DNA of 64,000 nt from Liolophura sinensis (taxonomy: Eukaryota > Mollusca > Polyplacophora > Chitonida > Chitonidae): positions 35,434,510 through 35,498,509 of the forward strand of contig NC_088295.1 in assembly GCF_032854445.1 (NCBI RefSeq), given 5' to 3'. The notes beneath the pieces were generated by a model, which was given only the letters and a program-made list of their open reading frames with translations, had not been told where the DNA came from and made no database searches. The translations under genes were made by a program, and so were the position numbers. This document shows positions 86-64,000 of the stretch, in pieces (the first letter of the stretch is position 1; the number at the start of each line of letters is the position of its first letter).

Positions 86-20286
<20,201 letters not shown>

Positions 20287-28944: not shown

Positions 28945-31900
28945 TTAAGTGGCGGAAAGGCCTTGTAATTGTGGGTTCCTGGATAACTGTCCTCGGTGCT
29001 TTGTGCCTTGTATTTTGTCATCCAGGATTGTACAGTTACTTCTCCTTTCTCCACACCAGAACACCTTGAAAAACAGGCAAGTCATAAAAACATGAAGATC
29101 AGACAAAATAAATAGGTGGATTTTCAGTTTTCTTTTTATTTCATTTCTGGATTTTTTTTGTGTTGTCTTGCCGGTAAAAGTGAATACAAAATTGGTGTCA
29201 CATAATGAGAGACAAATAACTGTGCACAATATATCTCCATCAATGTCAGATAACCTTACTATGAGAAGTAAGAGTGACATCACACATTCTTACGGCCAAA
29301 GACATTTTCCATGTGACCATATATAATAACTACTCCATTAAGACAGAACAATTCGGTCCATATCAGCGCAAATAGTGAACTCCTATTCTTCCTCCCCTTG
29401 GTCAACTCAGAGTTATCTCCCCTTAGTCCACTTGAATTTGGTACACACGTGCATAGATAGATCTAACGTCTAAATGTTGATGAGATTTTCCAAATTTCCT
29501 GTGAAGTTTAAGATAGCATTGTTAATAATTATATTTTTATAACAAATAACTGCAAAGGATCTAAAATTTCGCCCCAAAATATTTAGAAGCAAATAAATGT
29601 CACAAAATACAATATAATATTTAGTGTGCCGAGCCTTACGCTTTCCAGTGGAATATCATCCTGCCTTTCAAATAAACCTCAAGATACCTTTCTAAGATGA
29701 ATGAAAATCTTAGAATTGGTAAAAATGGCCAACTGTGTCATGGTCAATATTTTGAGTTATTTAGAGTCAGTTCAGAGATGAAATAAAGATAATATTGTAC
29801 GAGTAATGACACATTCATGAAAGTTTTTAGTCTGCTTCAATACATACACATAGAACTACCTCATCACATACCTACCAGCTGAGGTGTTCTCTTATACTGG
29901 AAACACTGGGGGAAGTTTATCTCTACTTGTTCTACTTCATATCGCAGTCCGTTGTCTGTACACAAGTGCAGGTCCTTCAGACACTGCCTGAAGTGATCAT
30001 AGGCTGGACACACCACATCACAGTCAGTGATGGTGAAAACTAGCCTAAAAAGCAGAGAGAATATGCCCAATCCAAAGTAACTTTTTAAAAATATTTGTAA
30101 TAAGTGAAAACTACATTGGATGATGTTTATGCTTCTCGCCTAGTATTTTAAATTTTGGAAGATTTTGATAATGGCCAAGATATAGCAATGATCTGTGAAA
30201 AGAATTTGCCCAGTTATGGAGATGCACTTATCAGAAACTATGTGAGACGAAGCAAAATACTGAAGGAACACAAAGCTTTCTCCATTCACAACATTCAAAT
30301 GAAGCCATAACTCTAATAAATCATGGCTGACCATGTCTCCAACACAATGTGCTAAAAGCAAGCCTTATGATAGCAACCTATAGCAATACCTAAATATTGT
30401 CCACATCCTGTCTGTCACTGATAGCATCTTTAGCTATACTCTAAGTAAGCATAAAAATAGCTGCCAGACATTGACCTAAACTCACCTTTTCTCCAAACTC
30501 AGGTAGAGTACTTTAGCAGGTGGTTGTGACATGAAGTGATGGAAAGTGCGGAAAAAGCCTTCTGTGAGATCCTCGTCATATACAACTGTGAACGAACCAT
30601 ATGGCAGTGTAATGTGGCTTAGCTAATTACTGTGTCGTAAAGGATACAGGAAACATTTGGTGTTTACTTCATAATATTCAGCTTAAGATGTGCTATCATA
30701 ACATATAATTTATTCACTCATTCGATTTATCTGATTGGTGTTTTAAGCCATACTTAAGAATATTTCACTTATACGATGGTGGCCAGCATTATGTTGAGAG
30801 GAAACGTAGAAGTATACCGTGGCTCTCGAAACTCACTTATAAAAACATGCATATACACTACATACTGGGTAATAAATGTATATTCTTTTTATCAGTTACT
30901 ATTATTTACCAATATATTCTGTAACCCTCGCCTGTTTTAATATTGCATAAGACTCCCATTAGTGTGCATGCAAATCGCTTGTCTCATAGAACTGACAAGT
31001 CTGTTATAAAAAAGAATGTTGTTAATTATAGTCATTTACAGGTAGTAAATCTCAATGGCTTATGGCATCATTATGGTTATTTACATGTAGTAAATCTCAA
31101 TGGTTTATGGCATCATTATGGTTATTTACATGTAGTAAATCTCAATGGCTTATGGCATCATTATGGTTATTTACATGTAGTAAATCTCAATGGCTTATGG
31201 CATCATTATGGTTATTTACATGTAGTAAATCCCAATGGTTTATGGCATCATTATGGTTATTTACATGTAGTAAATCTCAATGGCTTATGGCATCATTATG
31301 GTTATTTACACGTAGTAAATCTCAATGGTTTATGGCATCATTATGGTTATTTACATGTAGTAAATCTCAATGGCTTATGGCATCATTATGGTTATTTACA
31401 CGTAGTAAATCTCCATGGTTTATGGCATCATTATGGTTATTTACATGTAGTAAATCTCAATGGCTTATGGCATCATTATGGTTATTTACATGTAGTAAAT
31501 CTCAATGGCTTATGGCATCATTATGGTTATTTACACGTAGTAAATCTCAATGGCTTATGGCATCATTATGGTTATATACATGTAGTAAATCTCAATGGTT
31601 TATGGCATCATTATGGTTATTTACATGTAGTAAATCTCAATGGCTTATGGCATCATTATGGTTATTTACATGTAGTAAATCTCCATGGTTTATGGCATCA
31701 TTATGGTTATTTACATGTAGTAAATCTCAATGGTTTATGGCATCATTATGGTTATTTACATGTAGTTAATCTCCATGGTTTATGGCATCATTATGGCCAT
31801 TTACATGTAGTAAATCTCAATGGCTTATGGCATCATTATGGTTATTTACATGTAGTAAATCTCCATGGTTTATGGCATCATTATGGTTATTTACATGTAG

Positions 31901-34900
31901 TAAATCTCAGTGGTTTATAGCATCATTATGGTTATTTACATGTAGTAAATCTCAATGGCTTATGGCATTATTATGGTTATTTACATGTAGTAAATCTCAA
32001 TGGCTTATGGCATCATTATGGTTATTTACATGTAGTAAATCTCCATGGTTTATGACATCATTATGGTTATTTACATGTAGTAAATCTCAATGGTTTATAG
32101 CATCATTATGGTTATTTACATGTAGTAAATCTCAATGGCTTATGGCATCATTATGGTTATTTACATGTAGTAAATCTCAATGGTTTATGGCATCATTATA
32201 ATGGTTATTTACATGTAGTGAATAATAAAATGATTTGATGGCATACACAAACATACACCGGCCATTTACAAAGGGGACAAACCATTTTGCAGACAGCTTT
32301 TTGTCAGAGGAGTTTCAAGATTTGTTTTCCTGTGTACAAGTCTGCTGAACACTTACTACACTTACCATCAGCGGCTGTCAGAACCTTGACTGCCTGGATG
32401 TCCTCAAGGTCAGTGCTAGTCCAGCCAAATTCATCCTCTGGATCTACACAGACAAACATAAGTGTTGTGTACAGCAATAGTTTGGGACCATATAAGCAAA
32501 TTTGATAAAGATGGTAGTGGTGAGGGAGGGTAGAGTCTGGAGCCAAAACGCTCTCTAACCTTTTACCAGTTAGGTGATCTGTTTAAGTCCAACACTGACA
32601 CATTCTCCAGAAACCTTTCATCAAGGGCCTAGGCTACTATTTATCAAGCAACTTGAGACTTAAGTCATACACTGCAAGTACTTAGAAAGATGTACATACA
32701 CTGTACTTAAAATAACTCACACATTGTGCAGAGATAATTATAATCTGTGTATACAATTGCAAACTTACTAGAGCAAAACCTTTTAAGTGTAGCTGTGTTC
32801 GTAGTTCTTTAGTATTTGCTGAATGTCAACTGAGGTAGTTCCAACACTGGCAATTTATTCATTAATATTTATTTATTTAATTAGAGTTGTGATCCGTACT
32901 CAAGAGTATTTCATTTATTTGATGGTGTGAACCATTACAGTGTGAGGAAACTTAACAGAGCCCGGGGCACACCCACAGGTTTCTAACATACATTCCCATG
33001 CATTAGCACTCCTATCTAGAGATTGCCTACCTCCAGATTCAGCAGTTTTTTCTTACTAACTACACCTGCATCATGCAATGTGAAGCAGACTCCATAGAAC
33101 TCCACATCACACAGCTAATAATTACCTTGATCAGCTCTGACAGGGAACTCCCAGTCCCTCATCCAGTCTAAGTGCCGCACTTTGACAGGTGCAATTCTCT
33201 CTGCCCTCAACAACAGCTGACTGTTTATACCTGCATTATGCTCAGCCAATCTCAGAATACTGTTATGGACATCTGCAAAACAAACTAACTTTATGATCTG
33301 ACATAACATATGGCCATCAACACACTAAAGGCCATCCACTTCTCAGTGGGCTTTTTATATTCAAGACAGAGAAACTTTTACAAGGGCCAGAGTTGAACCC
33401 ATAATCTGCACTTCTGAGGGGCTTCCCAAAATGCTGAGACCAGTGCATAAGTACTTGTTTAGTTGGAGAATTACTGACACAAGTAAACTACTGCTACAAG
33501 AAGGCTTACCTGTACAGAAGACCTGTTTAGCAAACAGAGCTGTGACAATGCTAGTCAGTCCCACCCCTGCCCCCAGCTCCAGTGTCACATGACCAGTAAA
33601 CAGATCTGCATTTCCAAGAATGTACTCGCATAGTAACAAAGCTCCTAACCAAACCTGCAAAGTGTACGGTAGATGAGGAGATTTACTTGGAAACTATGCA
33701 TGTACATGGACACAGGTATATTTATTTATTTACATGGTGTTTCACACCATACTCAAAATTTTTTCACCCCTATGATGGCAATTAGCTTATTAATGAAACT
33801 GACCCAAGAAAACCACTGCCCTTCAATATGCCAGATGTGTACCTGACAAACCTCCGGAATCAAACTATCACATATAACACACTGAATGCATATGTGGTAT
33901 CAATTAAAGACACTGACATGATTGTATCCACATTAATTCATGACAAAATATATGCAGAGGGCATTTAGATATAAATTATTTTCCCAGTTTAATCCAGTTG
34001 CAGGTAATAATCAGCTCCATCTTGAGTCTCTTCAAATGTAGCTTGTAAAATTTCACACTTACAGATGCAAATATCTCCTAGAGAAATAAGACTTTATTTT
34101 TTTAAACCTTCATATAAATGTGACATGGTTACACGTCACATGGAAATAATCAAAATAATTGAAAAAATGGAGGACAAATCTGTGGTATGAGAAGACCACC
34201 AAGACCACTAGGGAATGTAATAACATAACATAACAGCAAAGGTGTGGAAGTAGAGCGAGAGAGAGAACTGAAGTGGTAAACCTTTGGAAGCTTACCTGAT
34301 GCCCCACATCCCCTCTCTGTGTGGCTAAATGGTGAACTAAAACATAAACAGATTAATGATTTTATTCTGAAACTGAAGACAAAAACACTAGAACATGTCT
34401 TTTTCAGGATCCAGGATACATTTATTAATACTGAAATATAGTGATTATAACAATAACAGTATGGGCACTTAGCTTAATATTGCTTCTAATGAGCAACCAC
34501 TTATCTGGTAACCACATTCATGCCACACACAACAAAAATTGAAACCTGTCCTCAGGAAAATGACATTTGTTATTGTCTGACATTGTTTTAGGTTGTGTTA
34601 AATTAATTCCAGAGGTTTAATGTTAAAAGTAAACATCATGTATAAAACAGTTGTAACAGTAACTGATTGTGAAGAAAATAATTGATGTAACAGGTCGGGT
34701 CTGAAATGAGTTTACCAATTGTTATGACAGACGTGTTGGATGTATCAGACTGCAATGGTCGCTGCAGGATGAGGTCACCTTCCTCATCTTCCAAAGAAGC
34801 CGTCAGGCAGTGGGTCTGTTTTTTGAGGTTAGGGCTGACAAGATCTAAATCTTCACAAAGCCTCGGTTTCTTCACAGCTGTGTTCCCTCCTACATCTACA

Positions 34901-46800: not shown

Positions 46801-49800
46801 GGGCACACACTGTAAGTCATGAGTTCGAGTATCACTTGAGCCAGTATTTTCGCCGGTCAGGATTTATCAATGATAGGAATTATGTACCAGATCCTGGAGA
46901 AGAATCACTGCCTGTTGTCGGAGGTCCAGGGCCCAGGTCTAAGGAGATGTCCCAGAACGGATCAATCGTCGTTGACACATTACTACCAAACAAATCAAAA
47001 AATAAACATATTCATATATGGGTTTTTATTTCTTATATTTATTTGATTGTTATTTAATGCCAAATTAAGAATTTTTCACATGTACGATGGCAGACTTTTT
47101 TATGGGCGGAGTAAATTATGGTCCCTGAACACATCCTTGACAAGAATTAAATTGCTAAATTTCCCCACGTCACATATCTCAACACTGCTGAAAGACCAAC
47201 AGTCTTCAATAAAGACCACACAAGAGAGCACTGTTGTCCACTTCTTGACACAATGTAGCCAAAAACAATGGAAATTGAGAATAATTGCAAATTCCCTATC
47301 AAAGACTGGGATTCAACCCACATCTTGAGTGAACTAGAGATTGAAAGGCCTTAAATTTAACACGCAGTCAATTGTAATACAAATTAAACCAAAGTAGTGT
47401 AAGCAGAATAATTTTCATTCACCTGAACATCAATTATGGCTACTCAACTTCATTTATCGTTTGTGTTTCTTCTGACTACAGATGTACTTATTCGTCTTAG
47501 AGGGGGTTACTAACATTTTCTGCATGCCCCCCAAAAAGGGGGAATATTATGTAGGACTTCTATCTACACGCTAAAGAATCAAGTCTGATTTATTCCTTCC
47601 TTCAATCAGAAATAGTGTTCTGGTCACAATATAACTGTTATCAATTAACTTAACACAAATAAATGTAAACACAGCCTTACTTGCACTGTTGACATGTGAC
47701 ATCTGATTGTAAGCCACCTGTGAAAATCTGGTCTATGATACAGTTACAATGGTGAGGATTCGTCGTAGACATGCCATTTGTTCCTGACAAATAAAATCAT
47801 CTTGCAGTTAACTAGGTATTTGGTATTTCATCAGATCAACTCACAAGTTGAGATCTTTATTTATCTGACTGGTGTTTTACGCCGTACTCAAGAATCAAGT
47901 TGAGATCTTTCAATATACTTGAAAACATATATTCTACAATTTACAGCATAAAACCAGAAGGCATTCAAACTCTGCGAACTCAGAATCAGTTTATAATCAA
48001 ACTTGCCCAACATCTTCACTGTATTTTTAATGCATTTATAGCCCATGTGCCAAATCAAACTAAAGCAATCATTTCACCCACTCAATTCTCAATGCTTATT
48101 CTTGCTGCCTTGATTCCTGAAACATTTTGAAACAAGATGACCAATGTTTGGAGAAAAGTTCTGAAAGCTGAGTTTGCAGGTGATGCCATTAAAACAAAGC
48201 TGGCTTGTAAACGACAGATTATGTCAGTCTATGCAGGGAAATACTCTCATAAGTTGCCTAAATGTGCATTAGGTTTCACATTTCTCAAGACAGAGAATTA
48301 AGACAGATGTAACATCCTGAACCTTCTGCATCACCACCAAATGTTACCTTTACAGTGTCTGTGTAGAACATCCAGGGCTGCGATGAGGAACTCATGAGCA
48401 TCCTGCTGCTCGTAGCCAGCCAGATGCCGTGCATTCGTCCACACAAGGTGCAGCAATCGGTATGGTATGTGAGGAGTACGTACACCCGAATAAAACTGCA
48501 CAACATGTGTTCACACATTTATTTTACACTCAACGATTTTCTTACTAATAATACACGTAAGTTACAGTAACAACTCATTTTGTTTAAACACCTGGGATCC
48601 AGTAAGAAAACATCAAGAGGCCTTTAGCCCCTTGAATGTACTTATTTCAACCCATGATTCCAGACAGACTGGCATTTTGAAAGAAATTCCATATTGAATA
48701 CTTGCATATTTGTTACACATTCACTTATGTACATGTGTAACTTCATTACATTACTCAAGTTTAATTATTACCACATAAACCATGGCAATCCATCAATATT
48801 TACACAAAGAATCATTCGGCAAAGTAGACTGCTGTACAAACCTCCTGGAATAAGCGGGCCATTTCACAAACAAGGCACTTTTGGGACTGAGTGGCTTGGG
48901 GGCAGTGATGTCTGTCAGCCAGAAAGAAGTCCCGCAGCAGTGGTGTATGAGTTAGGGCTTGGACTATACAGTTCATAAAGCAGGTGTTCCCAAGATTGAT
49001 TAAACCACGCAAACCTGCAAGCATTGCAGATCTTCATATCAAGGGACGACCAACAAAACATATGTCATGGGTGTTTTTATGGTGCAAGACAGAATGAACC
49101 AAAGGTAACAGGAAAATGTGGCCAGTATTATAAATCATGAATGAATAAATTATGAATAAATTATTGAACTCAGCAACTCTTCAGTCTAAATATGATCAGT
49201 GTATATATGTTACTCCCATACTTTATCAGATTGGCCTTTCAGAGGATTAAAAACAAGGAAACAGTCGCTTCTTGAAGTCATATCAAAACAAATTCATGCA
49301 CTTACAAACTCTTCTGGTAACAGATGAAAAAAAAACTGAATATCTGTAAATACAAACACTTTTGGTTTCTTTGGCAGGGCTTTGTAAGGTTGAAATCTAA
49401 GAAAATTGACATGTTTGTGAATGATACAGTCTAAACAGGGTTGAGCAGTGATGGAGCTTGTGGTACCACCTACCTACAGTAGAGGTGCCCTCAACCTTCC
49501 TTCGTTTGGGATGCTGAATCAGAAGGTCAACTTCTTCCTGTGTTGGTTCCCATGGAGATAGGCGGTGACCTATACCTTCACAAATTCAAAGTGTTTCAAG
49601 GTTATACAAACCTTAAATAGCTTGGAAAAGAGTGCATGGAGATTTATCAAACCGATGATTAACAGTTCAGAGGGACAATAGTCTTTTATATTTGTTCAGG
49701 GTGATGAATTCACATACAGCATCTTTACATGTACATGCATATGTTGTATTCAAAATCTCTTTACAGGTGTCAGGTTTGTGGGTTGAAAAGAAAAAACTGA

Positions 49801-51865: not shown

Positions 51866-54800
51866 ATGTTTTACAGAGAAATTGAGTTTGTGTTTTGTGC
51901 TCTTTGTTTGATACAACTGTCATTACTTTCAGTATCGACAAATTCGCAAACTAGCAGCACAACACCTCCCGGGAAATACAATGTCACAGGGCCCAAGCCT
52001 TCAGGTATGACAATATACGAATGTTACTTATGTCACGTGTAGGAGTAAGAAATGATCCAGTGTGGCAGTAGTAGACATATTCAATTTGATCAACTAAACT
52101 ACATGGCATTGGACTAATATTCTTTATTTTATTTTTCTGATTCTTTTTTTAATGACACTGTACCACCATTTTACTTTTAGACATTGTATGCTCGTCTGAT
52201 TGGCTCGACTCTGTACATTTACTCTACTCTGTGCATTTACTCTTGTGTATACTTCTGATAAACCATACTTGTTCTCTCAAAGTTCTAATATTTTTGAACC
52301 GCCTCGAATAATATTAAATCCCTTACACGAAGGTACATGTACATATCAGATCTTGCTTCTGAGTGAAGGGAGATTCAAGTGATATCGCTTCTAGAGGATG
52401 GCAGACGGAGCGAAAACATTTTATTTAGACATTAATGTTTTAGATTGATGCTCTGTACCGAGGCTGACATGACCAAATTTTGAAACGAGATATGTGTTAA
52501 GATTTGTGCGTGGGATTTGTTTTGATTTGAGGCGGGTGAAAATACTGCAGACTTTGAGCGAAATATGACGCACATGTCTCGGTGACGAGTGGGAAAGGTG
52601 TACTCAAAATATTTTCGGTCTTGGGTTTTCCTCGGGCTCTGCCCGGTTTCCACCCACGATAATGCTGGCCGCCGTCGTATAAGTGAAATATTCTTGAGTA
52701 CGGTGTAAAACACCAATCAAATAAATAAATAAATAAACAAAATATTTTCACTAATGTGATGATGGCTATTTTTATGAGTGGAGCAAACTGAATCATCAGT
52801 GGCAAGTTACTGACCTTCCCCGGCTTCCGTGGCTTAGTTGGTTAGCGTGCTAGCGCAGCGTAATGACCCTGGAGCCTCTGACTGATCTGGTCGCTGTGAA
52901 TTCAGGTCCACCTCATGCAGGCTTCCTCAAGTCTGGCAGCAACCTGCAGATGGTCATGGGTTTCCTCCGGGCTCTGCCTGGTTTCCTCCCACCATAATTC
53001 TGGTCACCATCGTATAAGTGGAATATTCTTGAGTACGGTGTAAAACACCAATCAAATAAATAAATAAATGAATATTGACTTTCCACAAAAAGTATGGAGA
53101 TGTGTGCACTCGATTATTTGTGGAAGTTATACATGAGTGGTCTTTAATAACGTTATATTGTGCAACAGCCACATGAGCATCATTGAATGTTTTTTGTCAC
53201 CAAGGCCCTACTAAATGTGAGAAATTCCCTGTTTCAGGCCACTTTTGAACTTTGACTGTATGTGTCTTACAAAATGACCTGATACCTAAACTAGTATGAT
53301 GTACTTGGTGTTTTTAAAATTTAGCAGAGTTTATCTTGTGACATTTAAAATATGCTCATAACTGTGGGATTTTTAATGCCAGCGGCCAATATAGCTGTAG
53401 TAATATGGTTGACCTTTCAGTTAGGCAAGTTATTGACAAAACTTTCCACATGAAATGTACACATGTTCACACTTGTATATTGGTGAAAGATAGATTAAGT
53501 GGTCTTTAATGAATGTTAGATTGTGCAACATCTACATGAGCATCTTTGACCACTTAGTGTCACCAAGGTCACCAGGTAGATTGGGGAATTCTGCACCGTG
53601 AGTAATGTTGACTTCCAGCATAGGGAGTGATGTACATTGTCAGCATAGAAAGTAATGTGGACTTCCAGAATAGGGAGTGAGGTACATTGTCAGCATAGTG
53701 AGTAATGTGGACTCTCAGAATAGGAAGTGATGTACACTGTCAGCACAGTGATTAATGTGGACTTCCAGAATAGGGAGTGATGTACACTGTCAGCACAGTG
53801 AGTAATGTGCACTTCCATGAAGGATAGGGAGTAATGTACACTGTCAGTATTGTGAGTCATGTGGATTGTCAGAATAGGGAGTGATGTACACTGTCAGCAC
53901 ATTGAGTAATGTTGACTTCCAGAATAGGGAGTGATGTACACTGTCAGCATAGTTGGTAATGTGCACTTCCAGAATAGGGAGTGATGTACACTGTCAGCAC
54001 AGTGAGTAATGTTGACTTCCAGAATAGGGAGTGATGTACACTGTCAGCATAGTTCGTAATGTGCACTTCCAGCTTTCCACAATACTAGTTTGGCTGTTTG
54101 TGCAGTTTTTGAACCAATATGGTCTCCCTCCGTATTTTTCAGGTCCTCTTGTTCACTTTTATTTGTACCGTAGTATGGTTTTGTCAGGACATAGGAAAGC
54201 ATACACAGTTTGGTCTGTAATAAAAAGCCAAAAATATTGCTGTGATGTCACTGATACCCTCCTATGTTTTAAATGCATTTAACTCGGTTAGAAAAAAATT
54301 AAAAGAAATAAATGAAACTATTTTCCTGGACAGTGTTTAATGGTCCTTATTGTGTTTTTGAAATAACAAGTTCAGGAAATTTACAGTGTACATGTGATGG
54401 TGTACATGTTTTTATATTTTGATTTGATTTATATAATTGGTGTTTTACGCTGTACTCAAGACTTTCATATTTTGAACACCTTTAAACCAGCTATTGTGAT
54501 AGTATGTATTCAGTTTGTTGCTGAATGTGCATATGAAATGAAATTAAGAACATGTGTCTCCAAATTTCTGATTGCAGGTTTACAGCAGGTTGTGGACCCA
54601 AATGGAAACTGTTCTCTGAATACTTCTGATTATTCTGCAGTTTATAACGAGAGATGTGGATCTTCGAGACCACTACCACCCTTATTGCAATATTTCTGTG
54701 GGTATATTGTGAAGATTCTGCAAAAAGTTTGTACGGATCATAATCCACAGCTGAAAATAACTGTACCTTCTGATGAACCCTGGCCTGAATCTAGATGTGA

Positions 54801-57800
54801 GGACCTGAGAAAGCTTGCTGCAGAGATTGAACAAATTCATCCCTCAGAAACAAATATCACAGATTCAGATTATAGATATTGTCAGTTCATCTGTGCAGGT
54901 CAAGACGCATTCTGTCAGTTATTTCGTGGATCTTTGTTACTGTTGCAACATTCTGTTACAGGTAGTTATACATTTTCTTGCTTTGCAAAAATACTTTATA
55001 GACATTTACATGCTGTTTTATTTAGTAATTTATTGTTTTTGCTGTGATTCATTTTGTTTTTATGCACCTGCCATTAGGTGGCATTATGCTACAGCGATTT
55101 TGTCTGTCTGTCTGTCTATTGTCATGTCTGGCTATATCTCAGATTATTTTCCGTGTGCAGGTTTAATTTTTGGTTGCTACCTTGATACTGAGGTAATGAT
55201 GTGTACGACTCCAATCTGTTTTCCACGTTGAATTTTGAGTTTTGAGGATACATAGATACACAGATGACGATGTTTCACAACTCACATTCATCTATTTCCG
55301 CGATTGTCATGGTAACCGGATCGCCATTTTCCATATGTATACTATGTAAATAGATACGATTTTGTGTCCGAGCTACATGTACTACACCTAGTGTTTTCAC
55401 GTACGTAGATTTATTTATTTGTTTGATTGGTGTTTTACGCCAATGATGTATATGATGGCAGCCAGCATAAGAAACTGGGCAGAGCCCAGGAGAAACCCAC
55501 AACCATCCGCAGGTTGCTTGAAGACCTTCCCAGGTGTACCAATAGTTTTTTGTCACTATTGTAGCTATAGTTTAGACCGAAACAATCTGTAGGAACTGAC
55601 ACAATTTACAACCTGTTTTAACCATTGCATCGCTTTTCTTGGCAGCTGTATATTGTAGCTGATTTTCACATTCTGCTTTGCAGTTTGATCCCTTCAGTCA
55701 CTATCCACAACTAAACATACCTAGGAAACACCTACTCCTGACAAGAAAATGACTACTCCAACACTTACTACCCAAAACGCAACTGTTCCTTCCAAAATTT
55801 CAACCATTTTCCATTTGTATGCTATGTAGATAGATACAATTTCGTGTCGGAGCTACTACTCCAAGTGTTTTCACATACCAGTAGATTTATTTTTTTATTT
55901 GATTGGTGTTTTACACTGTACTCAAGAAAATAACTACTCCAACTGTTATTACCCAAAACACAACTGTTCCTTCCAAGAATTCAGGTGGTTAGCGGTTGCA
56001 GTAAAATAAACACTATAGGGACTTGGATTCTTATGGGCAGCTCATTTGAAGCGTTCATTCTATCCAACATTGTGCTGATACACATGTCCTATTACTAGAT
56101 GCGATGTACTAAAAATTGTTGCAAACTGCATGTTTATCGGGTAGCATGCTTACAATATTCATACATTCATCCTAGACATGAGAACATGATAAATGCATTA
56201 TATGGCATGTGGATCTACATGTAATGTGCCAAATAAAGTAAATTGTCGTTTGGATAATTTTTCCAGCACTGCAAGTTCTGCATTTATTCACACAGGTCAA
56301 CAATTTTCAGCACACATGCAGTACATACATAGCCCTTTGCCATTTTCAGCTTTACATGTGTAATGGTTTTCTGTCATGTGGCCTCCAAATGTGGGGATTT
56401 AGCGCTTTTACCAACTTTATTTGCAACCTGCGTCAAAACAATCCATCGCAGAAAAGAATAGAAAAGACCAGAGTCGTCATGAGAATATCAAACTTTGTCT
56501 GGTAGCATATGTAAAATATTTAAACTCCGGAAATTTTGGTTAGGTGACAAATTTGGTAATCGGTACATTTCAACAGTTTTGAATATATTGAACTGATTCT
56601 TTTATGCTTCATTTCCCCCAACATGTTCTGTCAGCATTCTGAAAATTAACAGTTGTGGATAAAAATATTTCCAAAGTGAGCTGGATTTGAACCTCAAATT
56701 GCTAAATATTGTATGCAAGAAAAACATAAAAAGGAAGAATGATGAGGAATAGACTGGACTTGAATCACAGACTGCTAGGACTGGTAGTGTAATATCTGTT
56801 AGTTTTGTGAGAATGAAAAAGAACAAAGTAAAAATATGGGCAAGAATTAACTGGATTTGAACCGCAGGTGACTGTCAGTTACAGCTTCTGTGAAGACCAG
56901 TGAATAGAAATTAAAGATTGTCCTCTGCTAACAGTGCTAGATTGCATGTATGAAGAGATTATGGCTTTGATCACGAGAGTGTTTCTTTAATTTACTTCCC
57001 CTGGCAGCAGACAAATTTAGAATACATGTCCTGTAGCTAGAAAAACTACATACAGTCTAGCAGGAAGCTCCCATTTTATTTCAAAGGTAAGGTTGGGTTG
57101 TCAAATTTTTGTTGCTTTTTTGGTGGATTATAACATGAAAATAATACAAAGTACATGTACAAAAACAATTCTGGTAGATTTGTAATCCTGATGTAGGGGA
57201 GCACCAGCCTGTGTGTTTTGTTAAAAGCATTGGTTTGTTGGCCTAGTTTGCATACCAAACCGAAAGTCTTTTTACCAGCAGAGTATGATGATAAGCGTGG
57301 AATCAGCAAGTGAAATTTTGTATTGAAAGCTTTTGCTGTTTTTGAGGAGAAAATTTTTTAAGCTTATGAGTAAAATTAAAAATTTGATATTTTAGTGTTA
57401 TCATATATATGGTCATCAGAAGCTGTTTCATGATCACAAAAGTCTAAGGCTTTCACTTTTTCTTTTTCAGGTAATGGAGGGACTAGTGAAAGTCCAGGTA
57501 ATCCCATTGCCTTGTGTTATGAAATAATGATAAATTGAAGCTGTTGCCATGGTTGCTGTCACTAGTCTTTTACCACTTCTGGTAGCCAGATGTATATAAA
57601 GCTCATGATAATTGAGAAAAAAATGTGGAACAAAGATGGTATTAATTCACCAGGTTTGAGTGGGAGACTCTTAAAATGTACATTCAAAACAGAAAGTTAT
57701 CAAAGAGGAAAGAAGATATATGTGAGCAAATTGTTGCAAACTACATGTTTATCGGGTAGCATGCTTACAATATTCATACATTCATCCTAGACATGAGATC

Positions 57801-60800
57801 ATGATAAATGCATTATATGGCATGTGGATCTACATGTAATGTGCCAAATAAAGTAAATTGTCGTTTGGATAATTTTTCCAGCACTGCAAGTTCTGCATTT
57901 ATTCACACAGGTCAACAATTTTCAGCACACATGCAGTACATACATAGCCCTTTGCCATTTTCAGCTTTACATGTGTAATGGTTTTCTGTCATGTGGCCTC
58001 CAAATGTGGGGATTTAGCGCTTTTACCAACTTTATTTGCAACCTGCGTCTAAACAATCCATCGCAGAAAAGAATAGAAAAGACCAGAGTCGTCATGAGAA
58101 TATCAAACTTTGTCTGGTAGCATATGTAAAATATTTAAACTCCGGAAATTTTGGTTAGGTGACAAATTTGGTAATCGGTACATTTCAACAGTTTTGAATA
58201 TATTGAACTGATTCTTTTATGCTTCATTTCCCCCAACATGTTCTGTCAGCGTTCTGAAAATTAACAGTTGTGGATAAAAATATTTCCAAAGTGAGCTGGA
58301 TTTGAACCTCAAATTGCTAAATATTGTATGCAAGAAAAACATAAAAAGGAAGAATGATGAGGAATAGACTGGACTTGAATCACAGACTGCTAGGACTGGT
58401 AGTGTAATATCTGTTAGTTTTGTGAGAATGAAAAAGAACAAAGTAAAAATATGGGCAAGAATTAACTGGATTTGAACCGCAGGTGACTGTCAGTTACAGC
58501 TTCTGTGAAGACCAGGGAATAGAAATTGAAGATTGTCCTCTGCTAACAGTGCTAGATTGCATGTATGAAGAGATTATGGCTTTGATCACGAGAGTGTTTC
58601 TTTAATTTACTTCCCCTGGCAGCAGACAAATTTAGAATACATGTCCTGTAGCTAGAAAAACTACATACAGTCTAGCAGGAAGCTCCCATTTTATTTCAAA
58701 GGTAAGGTTGGGTTGTCAAATTTTTGTTGCTTTTTTGGTGGATTATAACATGAAAATAATACAAAGTACATGTACAAAAACAATTCTGGTAGATTTGTAA
58801 TCTTGATGTAGGGGAGCACCAGCCTGTGTGTTTTGTTAAAAGCATTGGTTTGTTGGCCTAGTTTGCATACCAAAGTGAAAGTTATTTTACCAGCAGAATA
58901 GGATGATAAGCATAGAATCAGCAAGTGAAATTTTGTATTGAAAGCTTTTGCTGTTTTTGAGGAGAAAATTTTTTAAGCTTATGAGTAAAATTAAAAATTA
59001 CCGATAAATCACTTTTGCTAACAACACAATGAATACACAATCCATAAAATTGTACATTTGTGTCAAATTGGTTTTTGGTGTTGGGTTAAAAGAAGCGAGA
59101 TAGGTTTATACTTGATGGATTTAGCTATAGACTAGACTTTTCCTTAATTTTAAACATTTTGGGGTTTAAAAGTATTGACAAAATGAACTTGAAACAAAAA
59201 GTTCTTCAATTGAGTTTTGTGTGGTTTAAATTTTAAATAGGAGAACCACAATTTGCAATACATTTTAGTAGTGTAATTTTATTTTCAAACTGTTATGATG
59301 GTATATAGAAGTTGAGTTAAGCTATTTAAGTATTTATTCTTGTCATGTCAGTAGCCATTGAAATGAATATACTAGGTATTAGGTAGTATTGGTATTAAAC
59401 GATAAACTTTGCTATTTGATTTCTTGGTATTTTTTCTGTGGCATGTCAGTATGTAGGTATTCAAACAAGGAAATATACAATTCTGAAAATATATAAGTAT
59501 TTGTCCTTGCTATATGTGATTGGAAATTGGAATGATATGAGTTGATTTATTTTATTGTAAATTACGGTGCAACTTTGGGCATTAATCTTGATATTTTAGT
59601 GTTATCATATATATGGTCATCAGAAGCTGTTTCATGATCACAAAAGTCTAAGGCTTTCACTTTTTCTTTTTCAGGTAATGGAGGGACTAGTGAAAGTCCA
59701 GGTAATCCCATTGCCTTGTGTTATGAAATAATGATAAATTGAAGCTGTTGCCATGGTTGCTGTCACTAGTCTTTTACCACTTCTGGTAGCCAGATGTATA
59801 TAAAGCTCATGATAATTGAGAAAAAAATGTGGAACAAAGATGGTATTAATTCACCAGGTTTGAGTGGGAGACTCTTAAAATGTACATTCAAAACAGAAAG
59901 TTATCAAAGAGAAAAGAAGATATATGTGAGCGAATTGTTGCAAACTACATGTTTATCGGGTAGCATGCTTACAATATTCATACATTCATCCTAGACATGA
60001 GAACATGATAAATGCATTATATGGCATGTGGATCTACATGTAATGTGCCAAATAAAGTAAATTGTCGTTTGGATAATTTTTCCAGCACTGCAAGTTCTGC
60101 ATTTATTCACACAGGTCAACAATTTTCAGCACACATGCAGTACATACATAGCCCTTTGCCATTTTCAGCTTTACATGTGTAATGGTTTTCTGTCATGTGG
60201 CCTCCAAATGTGGGGATTTAGCGCTTTTACCAACTTTATTTGCAACCTGCGTCAAAACAATCCATCGCAGAAAAGAATAGAAAAGACCAGAGTCGTCATG
60301 AGAATATCAAACTTTGTCTGGTAGCATATGTAAAATATTTAAACTCCGGAAATTTTGGTTAGGTGACAAATTTGGTAATCGGTACATTTCAACAGTTTTG
60401 AATATATTGAACTGATTCTTTTATGCTTCATTTCCCCCAACATGTTCTGTCAGCGTTCTGAAAATTAACAGTTGTGGATAAAAATATTTCCAAAGTGAGC
60501 TGGATTTGAACCTCAAATTGCTAAATATTGTATGCAAGAAAAACATAAAAAGGAAGAATGATGAGGAATAGACTGGACTTGAATCACAGACTGCTAGGAC
60601 TGGTAGTGTAATATCTGTTAGTTTTGTGAGAATGAAAAAGAACAAAGTAAAAATATGGGCAAGAATTAACTGGATTTGAACCGCAGGTGACTGTCAGTTA
60701 CAGCTTCTGTGAAGACCAGGGAATAGAAATTGAAGATTGTCCTCTGCTAACAGTGCTAGATTGCATGTATGAAGAGATTATGGCTTTGATCACGAGAGTG

Positions 60801-61905
60801 TTTCTTTAATTTACTTCCCCTGGCAGCAGACAAATTTAGAATACATGTCCTGTAGCTAGAAAAACTACATACAGTCTAGCAGGAAGCTCCCATTTTATTT
60901 CAAAGGTAAGGTTGGGTTGTCAAATTTTTGTTGCTTTTTTGGTGGATTATAACATGAAAATAATACAAAGTACATGTACAAAAACAATTCTGGCAGATTT
61001 GTAATCCTGATGTAGGGGAGCACCAGCCTGTGTGTTTTGTTAAAAGCATTGGTTTGTTGGCCTAGTTTGCATACCAAACCGAAAGTCTTTTTACCAGCAG
61101 AGTAGGATGATAAGCGTGGAATCAGCAAGTGAAATTTTGTATTGAAAGCTTTTGCTGTTTTTGAGGAGAAAATTTTTTAAGCTTATGAGTAAAATTAAAA
61201 ATTGCCGATAAATCACTTTTGCTAACAACACAATGAATACACAATCCATAAAATTGTACATTTGTGTCAAATTGGTTTTTGGTGTTGGGTTAAAAGAAGC
61301 GAGATAGGTTTATACTTGATGGATTTAGCTATAGACTAGACTTTTCCTTAATTTTAAACATTTTGGGGTTTAAAAGTATTGACAAAATGAACTTGAAACA
61401 AAAAGTTCTTCAAATAAGTTTTGTGTGGTTTAAATTTTAAATAGGAGAACCACAATTTGCAATACATTTTAGTAGTGTAATTTTATTTTCAAACTGTTAT
61501 GATGGTATATAGAAGTTGAGTTAAGCTATTTAAGTATTTATTCTTGTCATGTCAGTAGCCATTGAAATGAATATACTAGGTATTAGGTAGTATTGGTATT
61601 AAACGATAAACTTTGCTCTTTGATTTCTTGGTATTTTTTCTGTGGCATGTCAGTATGTAGGTATTCAAACAAGGAAATATACAATTCTGAAAATATATAA
61701 GTATTTGTCCTTGCTATATGTGATTGGAAATTGGAATGATATGAGTTGATTTATTTTATTGTAAATTACGGTGCAACTTTCGGCATTAATCTTGATATTT
61801 TAGTGTTATCATATATATGGTCATCAGAAGCTGTTTCATGATCACAAAAGTCTAAGGCTTTCACTTTTTCTTTTTCAGGTAATGGAGGGACTAGTGAAAG
61901 TCCAG
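51866..61905 (+). CDS. Unrecognised secretory-pathway gene with Cys-rich exon and repeated micro-exons (3' end outside window)
   Basis: Exon 1, 51866-52004, starts at an ATG giving MFYREIEF, then a hydrophobic run (VFCALCLIQLSLLSVS), a likely signal peptide cut near VST/NS, and an NVT sequon. Exon 2 starts at 54578 after TTGCAG and ends at 54961 (or at 54898; both donors leave phase 1). It encodes about 127 residues with nine or more Cys (NCSLNTSD, RCGSSRP, YFCGYIV, KVCTD, SRCEDL, YCQFICAG, AFCQLF) and sequons NCS, NTS and NIT. After it come phase-1 micro-exons 57471-57497, 59675-59701 and 61879-61905, each coding GNGGTSESP. Other exons may lie in 54962-57470. The architecture suggests an extracellular or luminal head on a Ser/Thr/Gly stalk. 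I do not recognise the family. It is unfinished at the right edge; no transmembrane segment is visible. Confidence 0.6.
52622..52738 (+). mobile_element. SINE 3' fragment
   Basis: TCGGGCTCTGCCCGGTTTCC, GATAATGCTGGCCGCCGTCG and GAGTACGGTGTAAAACACC, then AAAT repeats; in intron 1 of the Cys-rich gene. Confidence 0.85.
52820..53075 (+). mobile_element. Full-length SINE
   Basis: Head with box A (GTGGCTTAGTTGGTTAGCGT), weak box B (GTGAATTCAGGTCC), body and AAAT tail. Flanks TGACCTTCC (52811-52819) and TGACTTTCC (53076-53084) look like a target duplication with one change. Confidence 0.87.
53084..53574 (+). repeat. Diverged direct duplication, about 120 bp per copy
   Basis: 53084-53206 and 53444-53574 share AGTGGTCTTTAAT, TTAGATTGTGCAAC-like and CACATGAGCATC segments in order. 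Confidence 0.65.
53600..54075 (+). repeat. 50-bp minisatellite, about 9 copies
   Basis: Unit AGTAATGTGGACTTCCAGAA then TAGGGAGTGATGTACACTGT and CAGCACAGTG; starts at 53651, 53701 and 53751. In intron 1 of the Cys-rich gene. Confidence 0.93.
54418..54466 (-). mobile_element. SINE tail fragment
   Basis: ATTGGTGTTTTACGCTGTACTC just upstream of the Cys-rich exon 54578-54961. Confidence 0.6.
55406..55540 (-). mobile_element. SINE fragment
   Basis: ATTTATTTGTTTGATTGGTG, GGCAGAGCCCAGGAGAAACC and ACCATCCGCAGGTTGCTTG; reverse orientation. Confidence 0.8.
55884..55929 (-). mobile_element. SINE tail fragment
   Basis: TTTATTTGATTGGTGTTTTAC and ACTGTACTCAAGAA only. Confidence 0.6.
57471..57497 (+). CDS. 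Micro-exon copy 1 (27 nt, GNGGTSESP)
   Basis: A CTTTTTCTTTTTCAG acceptor precedes GTAATGGAGGGACTAG... and CCAG|GTAATCCC follows as donor. Phase 1 at both ends, so inclusion or skipping keeps frame. The exon's own first bases (GTAATG) resemble a donor. Confidence 0.55.
59675..59701 (+). CDS. Micro-exon copy 2
   Basis: Same 27 nt, acceptor and donor as the copy exactly 2204 bp to the left. Not one substitution in the exon. Confidence 0.55.
61879..61905 (+). CDS. Micro-exon copy 3
   Basis: Identical to copies 1 and 2, again 2204 bp further on. A fourth would fall near 64083, past the window edge. Confidence 0.55.
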
Positions 61906-64000
61906 GTAATCCCATTGCCTTGTGTTATGAAATAATGATAAATTGAAGCTGTTGCCATGGTTGCTGTCACTAGTCTTTTACCACTTCTGGTAGCCAGATG
62001 TATATAAAGCTCATGATAATTGAGAAAAAAATGTGGAACAAAGATGGTATTAATTCACCAGGTTTGAGTGGGAGACTCTTAAAATGTACATTCAAAACAG
62101 AAAGTTATCAAAGAGGAAAGAAGATATATGTGAGCAAATTGTTGCAAACTACATGTTTATCGGGTAGCATGCTTACAATATTCATACATTCATCCTAGAC
62201 ATGAGATCATGATAAATGCATTATATGGCATGTGGATCTACATGTAATGTGCCAAATAAAGTAAATTGTCGTTTGGATAATTTTTCCAGCACTGCAAGTT
62301 CTGCATTTATTCACACAGGTCAACAATTTTCAGCACACATGCAGTACATACATAGCCCTTTGCCATTTTCAGCTTTACATGTGTAATGGTTTTCTGTCAT
62401 GTGGCCTCCAAATGTAGGGATTTAGCGCTTTTACCAACTTTATTTGCAACCTGCGTCAAAACAATCCATCGCAGAAAAGAATAGAAAAGACCAGAGTCGT
62501 CATGAGAATATCAAACTTTGTCTGGTAGCATATGTAAAATATTTAAACTCCGGAAATTTTGGTTAGGTGACAAATTTGGTAATCGGTACATTTCAACAGT
62601 TTTGAATATATTGAACTGATTCTTTTATGCTTCATTTCCCCCAACATGTTCTGTCAGCGTTCTGAAAATTAACAGTTGTGGATAAAAATATTTCCAAAGT
62701 GAGCTGGATTTGAACCTCAAATTGCTAAATATTGTATGCAAGAAAAACATAAAAAGGAAGAATGATGAGGAATAGACTGGACTTGAATCACAGACTGCTA
62801 GGACTGGTAGTGTAATATCTGTTAGTTTTGTGAGAATGAAAAAGAACAAAGTAAAAATATGGGCAAGAATTAACTGGATTTGAACCGCAGGTGACTGTCA
62901 GTTACAGCTTCTATGAAGACCAGGGAATAGAAATTGAAGATTGTCCTCTGCTAACAGTGCTAGATTGCATGTATGAAGAGATTATGGCTTTGATCACGAG
63001 AGTGTTTCTTTAATTTACTTCCCCTGGCAGCAGACAAATTTAGAATACATGTCCTGTAGCTAGAAAAACTACATACAGTCTAGCAGGAAGCTCCCATTTT
63101 ATTTCAAAGGTAAGGTTGGGTTGTCAAATTTTTGTTGCTTTTTTGGTGGATTATAACATGAAAATAATACAAAGTACATGTACAAAAACAATTCTGGTAG
63201 ATTTGTAATCTTGATGTAGGGGAGCACCAGCCTGTGTGTTTTGTTAAAAGCATTGGTTTGTTGGCCTAGTTTGCATACCAAAGTGAAAGTTATTTTACCA
63301 GCAGAATAGGATGATAAGCATAGAATCAGCAAGTGAAATTTTGTATTGAAAGCTTTTGCTGTTTTTGAGGAGAAAATTTTTTAAGCTTATGAGTAAAATT
63401 AAAAATTACCGATAAATCACTTTTGCTAACAACACAATGAATACACAATCCATAAAATTGTACATTTGTGTCAAATTGGTTTTTGGTGTTGGGTTAAAAG
63501 AAGCGAGATAGGTTTATACTTGATGGATTTAGCTATAGACTAGACTTTTCCTTAATTTTAAACATTTTGGGGTTTAAAAGTATTGACAAAATGAACTTGA
63601 AACAAAAAGTTCTTCAATTGAGTTTTGTGTGGTTTAAATTTTAAATAGGAGAACCACAATTTGCAATACATTTTAGTAGTGTAATTTTATTTTCAAACTG
63701 TTATGATGGTATATAGAAGTTGAGTTAAGCTATTTAAGTATTTATTCTTGTCATGTCAGTAGCCATTGAAATGAATATACTAGGTATTAGGTAGTATTGG
63801 TATTAAACGATAAACTTTGCTCTTTGATTTCTTGGTATTTTTTCTGTGGCATGTCAGTATGTAGGTATTCAAACAAGGAAATATACAATTCTGAAAATAT
63901 ATAAGTATTTGTCCTTGCTATATGTGATTGGAAATTGGAATGATATGAGTTGATTTATTTTATTGTAAATTACGGTGCAACTTTCGGCATTAATCTTGAT

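Follow-up and report, generated by a model that had tools for sequence, protein, structure and literature searches.

In Schistosoma mansoni, the SmPoMuc genes carry up to about 20 tandem genomic repeats of about 1 kb, and every repeat contains a 27-bp exon, exon 2 (PMC2576457, Roger et al. 2008; SmPoMuc is also treated in PMC4015677). According to PMC2576457, the introns are more than 93% identical, the exon occurs in the versions r1 and r2, the cDNAs contain the repeats, and the repeat number varies between individuals, as inferred by the authors from Southern blots; repeated exon-intron units are also named there for spider silk and for the Coccidioides SOWgp gene. In humans, the LPA kringle IV-2 (KIV-2) variable number tandem repeat has a coding unit of 5.6 kb in 1 to about 40 copies, and the copy number alters the size of the protein (PMC11462820). 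Collagen-type duplication of symmetric exons provides a wider precedent (PMC4838654). Here, we describe an array of tandem units with micro-exons in a 64,000-nucleotide stretch of the genome of the chiton Liolophura sinensis (contig NC_088295.1, in the following C1, positions 35434510-35498509), referred to as the window, and in the DNA that follows it. We propose that a single-copy gene of the KCT2/TGN38 type probably encodes the stalk of a membrane protein in 15 such micro-exons, and that the stalk was lengthened by block-wise unequal exchange.

In the window, the 27-nt segment GTAATGGAGGGACTAGTGAAAGTCCAG was recovered in exact form at 57471-57497, 59675-59701 and 61879-61905 on the forward strand, with 2204 bp from start to start. 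Beyond these three sites, no segment with seven or fewer mismatches to it was identified on either strand of the whole window. The three copies have the same 40 nt upstream, which end in CTTTTTCTTTTTCAG with a pyrimidine tract followed by CAG, and the same 20 nt downstream (gtaatccc...). Self-identity at an offset of 2204 was 94-100% in the 100-bp bins starting from 57401 to 61701, which reach the end of the window, and the first unit of the array shares 99.2% identity with the second and 99.8% with the third. The initial annotation had described three identical micro-exons of phase 1/1, exactly 2204 bp apart, each of which adds nine residues without disturbing the frame. Both the spacing of these copies and their exon anatomy were borne out, the latter by a closed gene model of 437 residues (see below), and the identity was found to include the flanking splice signals.

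As had also been anticipated, the array is longer than the window and runs for about another 27 kb. All genome searches were made against the window's own assembly of 609 Mb, and coordinates above 64000 continue the numbering of the window beyond its end. A 246-nt query from the array matched at least 15 places in the genome, all of those listed being located on C1 between 35491893 and 35524625, and 15 micro-exons were counted in the DNA fetched on both sides. They are of two types in the order A A A A A A B A A B B B B B B. Eight of the 15 copies belong to type A (27 nt, GNGGTSESP) and the other 7 to type B (36 nt, GDGKN[G/R]GTSESP), with the sequence GDGKNGGTSESP in two of these and GDGKNRGTSESP in five; the two types are separated by a clean 9-nt in-frame indel. 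The three copies inside the window are of type A, as are micro-exons 4, 5 and 6 (starting at 64083, 66287 and 68491) and 8 and 9 (starting at 72907 and 75110), while micro-exon 7 (starting at 70695) and micro-exons 10-15 (starting at 78974, 81186, 83399, 85611, 87823 and 90036) are of type B, all on the forward strand. Thus, the 27-nt exon recurs beyond the three copies first noted, but not as the only size, and the constant spacing holds within the window but changes to 2203-2213 bp beyond it, with a single gap of 3873 bp. The array as a whole extends from 56113 to 91206 (C1:35525715), and its micro-exon-bearing portion inside the window covers 57471-64000. Both end units are truncated, and the leading one (56113-57384, forward strand) corresponds to unit positions 258-1529 and contains no micro-exon.

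The 3873-bp gap is accounted for by an insertion in unit 9, whose length exceeds that of unit 1 by 1660 bases. The insert (approximately 75582-77239, about 1.66 kb) has inverted ends, lies in the intron of unit 9 and in no other unit, and contains an open transposase frame of 324 residues. Since this frame matches the domains HTH_Tnp_Tc3_2 (E 5e-21) and DDE_3 (E 5e-18), we classify the insert as a transposon of the Tc1/mariner type. Apart from this insert and the A/B indel, the units differ in length by single intron bases (alignment columns 143 and 1972).

The micro-exons were placed in a gene model on the forward strand. The coding part of exon 1 (51866-52004), with an inferred start codon, encodes a predicted signal peptide and a short Thr/Ser/Pro stretch and ends in phase 1 at the donor gtatgaca. 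Exon 2 (54578-54961, 384 nt, phase 1/1), which had been named as the upstream exon in the initial annotation and fits the model, encodes a predicted lumenal domain of 128 residues with eight cysteines. Downstream of the array, the transmembrane exon (94572-94750) is entered in phase 1 and left in phase 0, and the tail exon (97285-97428) encodes a basic tail with the motif DYKLL, followed by the stop codon. When joined, the 19 exons yield 437 residues with no internal stop, and the phases agree at both ends of the array. The predicted stalk comprises 156 residues, including 47 Gly, 30 Ser and 15 Thr. The mean hydropathy over 19 residues exceeds 1.4 in two stretches only, residues 3-27, with a peak of 2.07 at residues 6-24, and residues 361-387; judged by hydropathy, this fits a type I layout with a signal peptide and one C-terminal span. 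Except for the micro-exons, each exon boundary is supported by a single splice signal. The transmembrane exon was absent from a first automatic exon scan, was picked by eye from the frame list and was then confirmed by Pfam. Downstream, the frame lists were read except for approximately 116390-135215 on the forward strand, a stretch beyond the modelled stop codon. The intron that precedes the array contains, at 55735-55990, a Thr/Pro-rich open stretch in duplicate (..TTPTLTTQNATVPSK.. and ..TTPTVITQNTTVPSKNSG), and the two copies resemble stalk exons that are decayed or alternative; by eye, their phases seem not to fit the model.

The Pfam family KCT2 (PF17818) matches residues 363-436 of the full model with 37.8 bits against a cut-off of 26.2 (E 2.8e-9), and the C-terminal piece alone scores 41.5 bits against the same cut-off; the match covers profile positions 117-186 of 187. 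The stretch SSHFLAYFLTACVICIAGYVLFHNKQK is one that we take to resemble the membrane segment of TGN38 and TGN46. A YXX-hydrophobic signal is present in the tail exon as DYKLL, and the corresponding signal in human TGN46 is YQRL (PMC10928510). The predicted protein would thus have in common with TGN38/TGN46 and KCT2 the type I orientation, a lumenal region, the matching membrane segment and the tail signal, features which mark the gene as a putative KCT2/TGN38 (TGOLN2)-type gene with a Gly/Ser-rich stalk that connects a Cys-rich head to the membrane. Unlike those proteins, it would have a stalk encoded by a micro-exon array and a Cys-rich N-terminal exon with no known relative. In TGN46, the lumenal domain is described as disordered, glycosylated and required for sorting into trans-Golgi carriers, and the lumenal region is poorly conserved between TGN38 and TGN46, at about 25% in bulk (PMC10928510); likeness of the lumenal sequence was not taken as defining for the group. 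A comparison of exon 2 to PDB sequences returned a sole chain, S2hlx_EX_19, at E 0.27. No second copy of exon 2 was identified in the genome, three other rows (E 1.4-3.5) containing stops and being dropped as noise, and the two C-terminal exons had no match elsewhere in the genome.

In the proposed mechanism, each unit of about 2.2 kb would lengthen the lumenal stalk by 9 residues if it is of type A and by 12 if it is of type B, and the copy number of the array would set the stalk length at no cost to the reading frame. Inclusion of the micro-exons in the mRNA is favoured because the segments are open and symmetric and because their only length change is divisible by three. The stalk may, in analogy to human TGN46, have a role in trans-Golgi sorting.

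The 15 micro-exons have a common 15-nt acceptor end and a common 8-nt donor, are open, and are entered and left in phase 1; all 15 acceptors contain at least 14 pyrimidines in 15 positions. Splice sites were scored by counting the positions that match the consensus. How often such segments occur by chance was estimated from a scan for segments of 9-60 nt that are bounded by a pyrimidine-rich acceptor, at thresholds of at least 12, 13 or 14 pyrimidines out of 15, and by a donor AG/GT(A/G)A. Outside the array (168.9 kb per strand, 338 kb on both), eight candidates were found at the threshold of 12, of which two were open and symmetric in phase 1; the threshold of 13 gave four candidates, one of them open and symmetric, and the threshold of 14 gave none. 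Inside the array, all 15 forward-strand candidates were open symmetric segments, whichever threshold was applied, with none on the reverse strand, as compared to an expectation of about 0.013 open symmetric segments per 2.2-kb unit at the loosest threshold. The filters were set after the micro-exon had been seen and the 15 copies share one ancestor, and the array is therefore to be counted as one rare coincidence, not as fifteen.

We also compared the units to each other. For 11 of the 14 full units, the nearest relative is located at a distance of two or three units, and for one it is the adjacent unit (unit 12, which is closest to unit 13 with two differences), while units 2 and 7 have their nearest relatives four and five to six units away. 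The closest pairs are units 1 and 3 (5 differences), 4 and 6 (3), 5 and 8 (8), 10 and 13 (1), and 11 and 14 (3). The 13 full units other than unit 9 are 98.4-99.95% alike. Unit 9 differs from its nearest unit at 12 positions when aligned without its insert; its values in the identity matrix are falsely low because they were obtained with the insert included. This pattern of relatedness is what would be left by repeated duplication of blocks of two and three units through unequal exchange. Such exchange, possibly together with gene conversion, may have both made the array and kept its units alike. A single difference in 2.2 kb points to recent events, and the array is therefore likely to be polymorphic in length between individuals.

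Several observations weigh against a stalk of 15 micro-exons in a gene of this type. The match to KCT2 is limited to the membrane and tail part, with exon 2 and the stalk outside of it, and exon 2 has no Pfam family of its own (the only row had an E of 8.8). Further exons are possible between those modelled. The micro-exon donors, gtaatc, deviate from the consensus at +5/+6 and match at 7 of 9 positions. The mean number of differences over all pairs of units is 19.1 at a distance of one unit, 16.1 at two, 16.8 at three and 23.7 at four, which is a weak trend. Finally, no stronger conservation of the micro-exon than of its surroundings is detectable, with one substituted column plus the indel, as compared to 67 of 2181 columns in the intron, a test that has no power in either direction because only about one change is expected. 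This lack of a conservation signal would also suit a purely intronic tandem repeat with a splice-like open segment of 27 nt, with exon 2 joined straight to the transmembrane exon in the mRNA, and skipping of the array would indeed keep the frame (phase 1 to phase 1). We consider this improbable, as comparable segments are scarce outside the array (2 in 338 kb at the loosest threshold), the sole change in exon length is divisible by three, and all 15 copies retain intact splice signals. Moreover, the transmembrane exon itself carries two head-to-tail 27-nt repeats (94591-94644), which are identical at 23 of 27 positions and have the same period as the micro-exon. Smaller still is the chance that, in a genuine array, the copy number of 15 is a product of the assembly. 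Sequences as similar as these units, when unit 9 is left out, are those that assemblers miscount. However, private variants occur in the units, as do two exon types, a transposon insertion is private to unit 9, and no stray units were seen on other contigs among the matches listed, although this does not prove the count.

A somewhat stronger alternative, which we nevertheless regard as unlikely, is that the micro-exons form a chain of recursive-splicing (RS) exons through the gap of about 40 kb and are partly or wholly removed, leaving a protein stalk that is short or variable. The type A micro-exon starts with GTAATG, and joining it to the upstream CAG rebuilds a 5' splice site, CAG/GTAATG, which with 7 of 9 positions equals the exon's own donor, CAG/GTAATC (7 of 9), in all eight copies. 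The pyrimidine-rich acceptors of all 15 micro-exons are also as expected for recursive splicing, and known RS-exons show this competition between two donors, with inclusion protected by the exon junction complex (PMC6224609, PMC8605326). In the seven type B copies, however, the rebuilt site CAG/GTGATG is poorer than the exon's own donor (6 versus 7 of 9). The GT at the start of the micro-exon comes free with glycine, as in any phase-1 exon with a split GGT as its first codon, and a pure recursive ratchet requires neither an open symmetric exon nor an in-frame indel. Since every combination of included and skipped micro-exons stays in frame, inclusion, partial inclusion and full skipping look alike at the sequence level. 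The preferred reading, a stalk encoded by the tandem micro-exons, could also be combined with recursive splicing, such that stalk length would be adjustable twice, by the number of units in the germ line and by inclusion versus recursive removal at each type A micro-exon. We put this forward as a tentative idea that is more probably wrong than right. If true, the two-level control would make stalk length polymorphic between individuals and tuned between tissues, and the design would have arisen independently of the schistosome mucins and outside a host-parasite conflict.

The initial annotation had regarded the duplication of whole units with one micro-exon each as an unusual way to make a short protein repeat. 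This view was not supported, since SmPoMuc, LPA KIV-2 and the schistosome micro-exon genes (MEG) are precedents for the route as such. Likewise, we discarded the notion of a new architecture. The exons of MEG are 6-81 bp in size and mostly unlike one another, whereas the chiton copies are near-identical and recent. Davis et al. 1988 and DeMarco et al. 2010 reportedly deal with schistosome micro-exon genes, as their titles indicate. As in the chiton gene, MEG (including 10-3/MEG-4, with repeats of 81 bases) have tiny, mostly symmetric exons between long introns and belong to the secretory pathway (PMC10526429, PMC4015677). SmPoMuc has the same design already, with repeats of about 1 kb in up to 20 copies (PMC2576457), and the shared element is a 27-bp exon in a near-identical tandem unit that includes the introns, although here 8 of the 15 exons have 27 nt and 7 have 36 nt, and the unit is 2.2 kb. 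The published description of SmPoMuc is of a parasite mucin multigene family with polypurine microsatellites between the units and an intronic hammerhead ribozyme, whereas the chiton gene is located at one locus, as judged by DNA and protein searches, has a KCT2-type tail and contains the mixture of 27-nt and 36-nt exons. For the hammerhead ribozyme, no Rfam match was obtained in 57000-62000, the sole stretch scanned. LPA KIV-2 is similar in having a coding tandem unit of several kb, but its two exons of about 160 and 182 bp encode a folded kringle, as compared to a micro-exon for 9-12 low-complexity residues here. With known RS-exons, the array shares the exon start that rebuilds a 5' splice site on joining (PMC6224609, PMC8605326), and it differs in that the candidate sites, known here from sequence alone, occur in 8 of 15 tandem symmetric exons. 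Among the matches listed in a search of open-licence PubMed Central full texts, there was no description of a micro-exon array in a KCT2/TGN38 gene. What appears to be new is the array in a single-copy gene of the KCT2/TGN38 type, the 27/36-nt mixture and the RS-exon-like start.

This suggests that the design of the schistosome mucins is not confined to surface antigens of parasites. The array presents a young and near-uniform stage of a protein repeat built by the copying of whole exon-intron units, as opposed to repeats within an exon, and its setting would be a membrane protein from a family involved in Golgi sorting. If micro-exon inclusion and copy-number variation both hold, the locus would provide TGN38/46-type stalks in a natural series of lengths, as well as 15 near-identical micro-exons per transcript for tests of exon definition, recursive splicing and the exon junction complex.

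No ncRNA or tRNA was identified in the whole window, scanned at bacterial settings, or in the scan of 57000-62000. An interspersed repeat, GATTGGTGTTTTACGCC.., is presumably mollusc-like; two stretches of it had no match in the full-text literature. A VEFS-box (SUZ12-type) exon of a neighbouring gene was identified at 20065-20286 on the forward strand, and a ubiquitin hydrolase (UCH) exon at 48812-49033 on the reverse strand, its gene being located upstream of exon 1 in the opposite orientation. At 31025-32223, a 45-bp tandem repeat in 26.6 copies is open in more than one frame, including a frame of 331 residues, and at 104861-105880, downstream of the gene, a simple-repeat stretch with NNPPTITP repeats is open in several frames.

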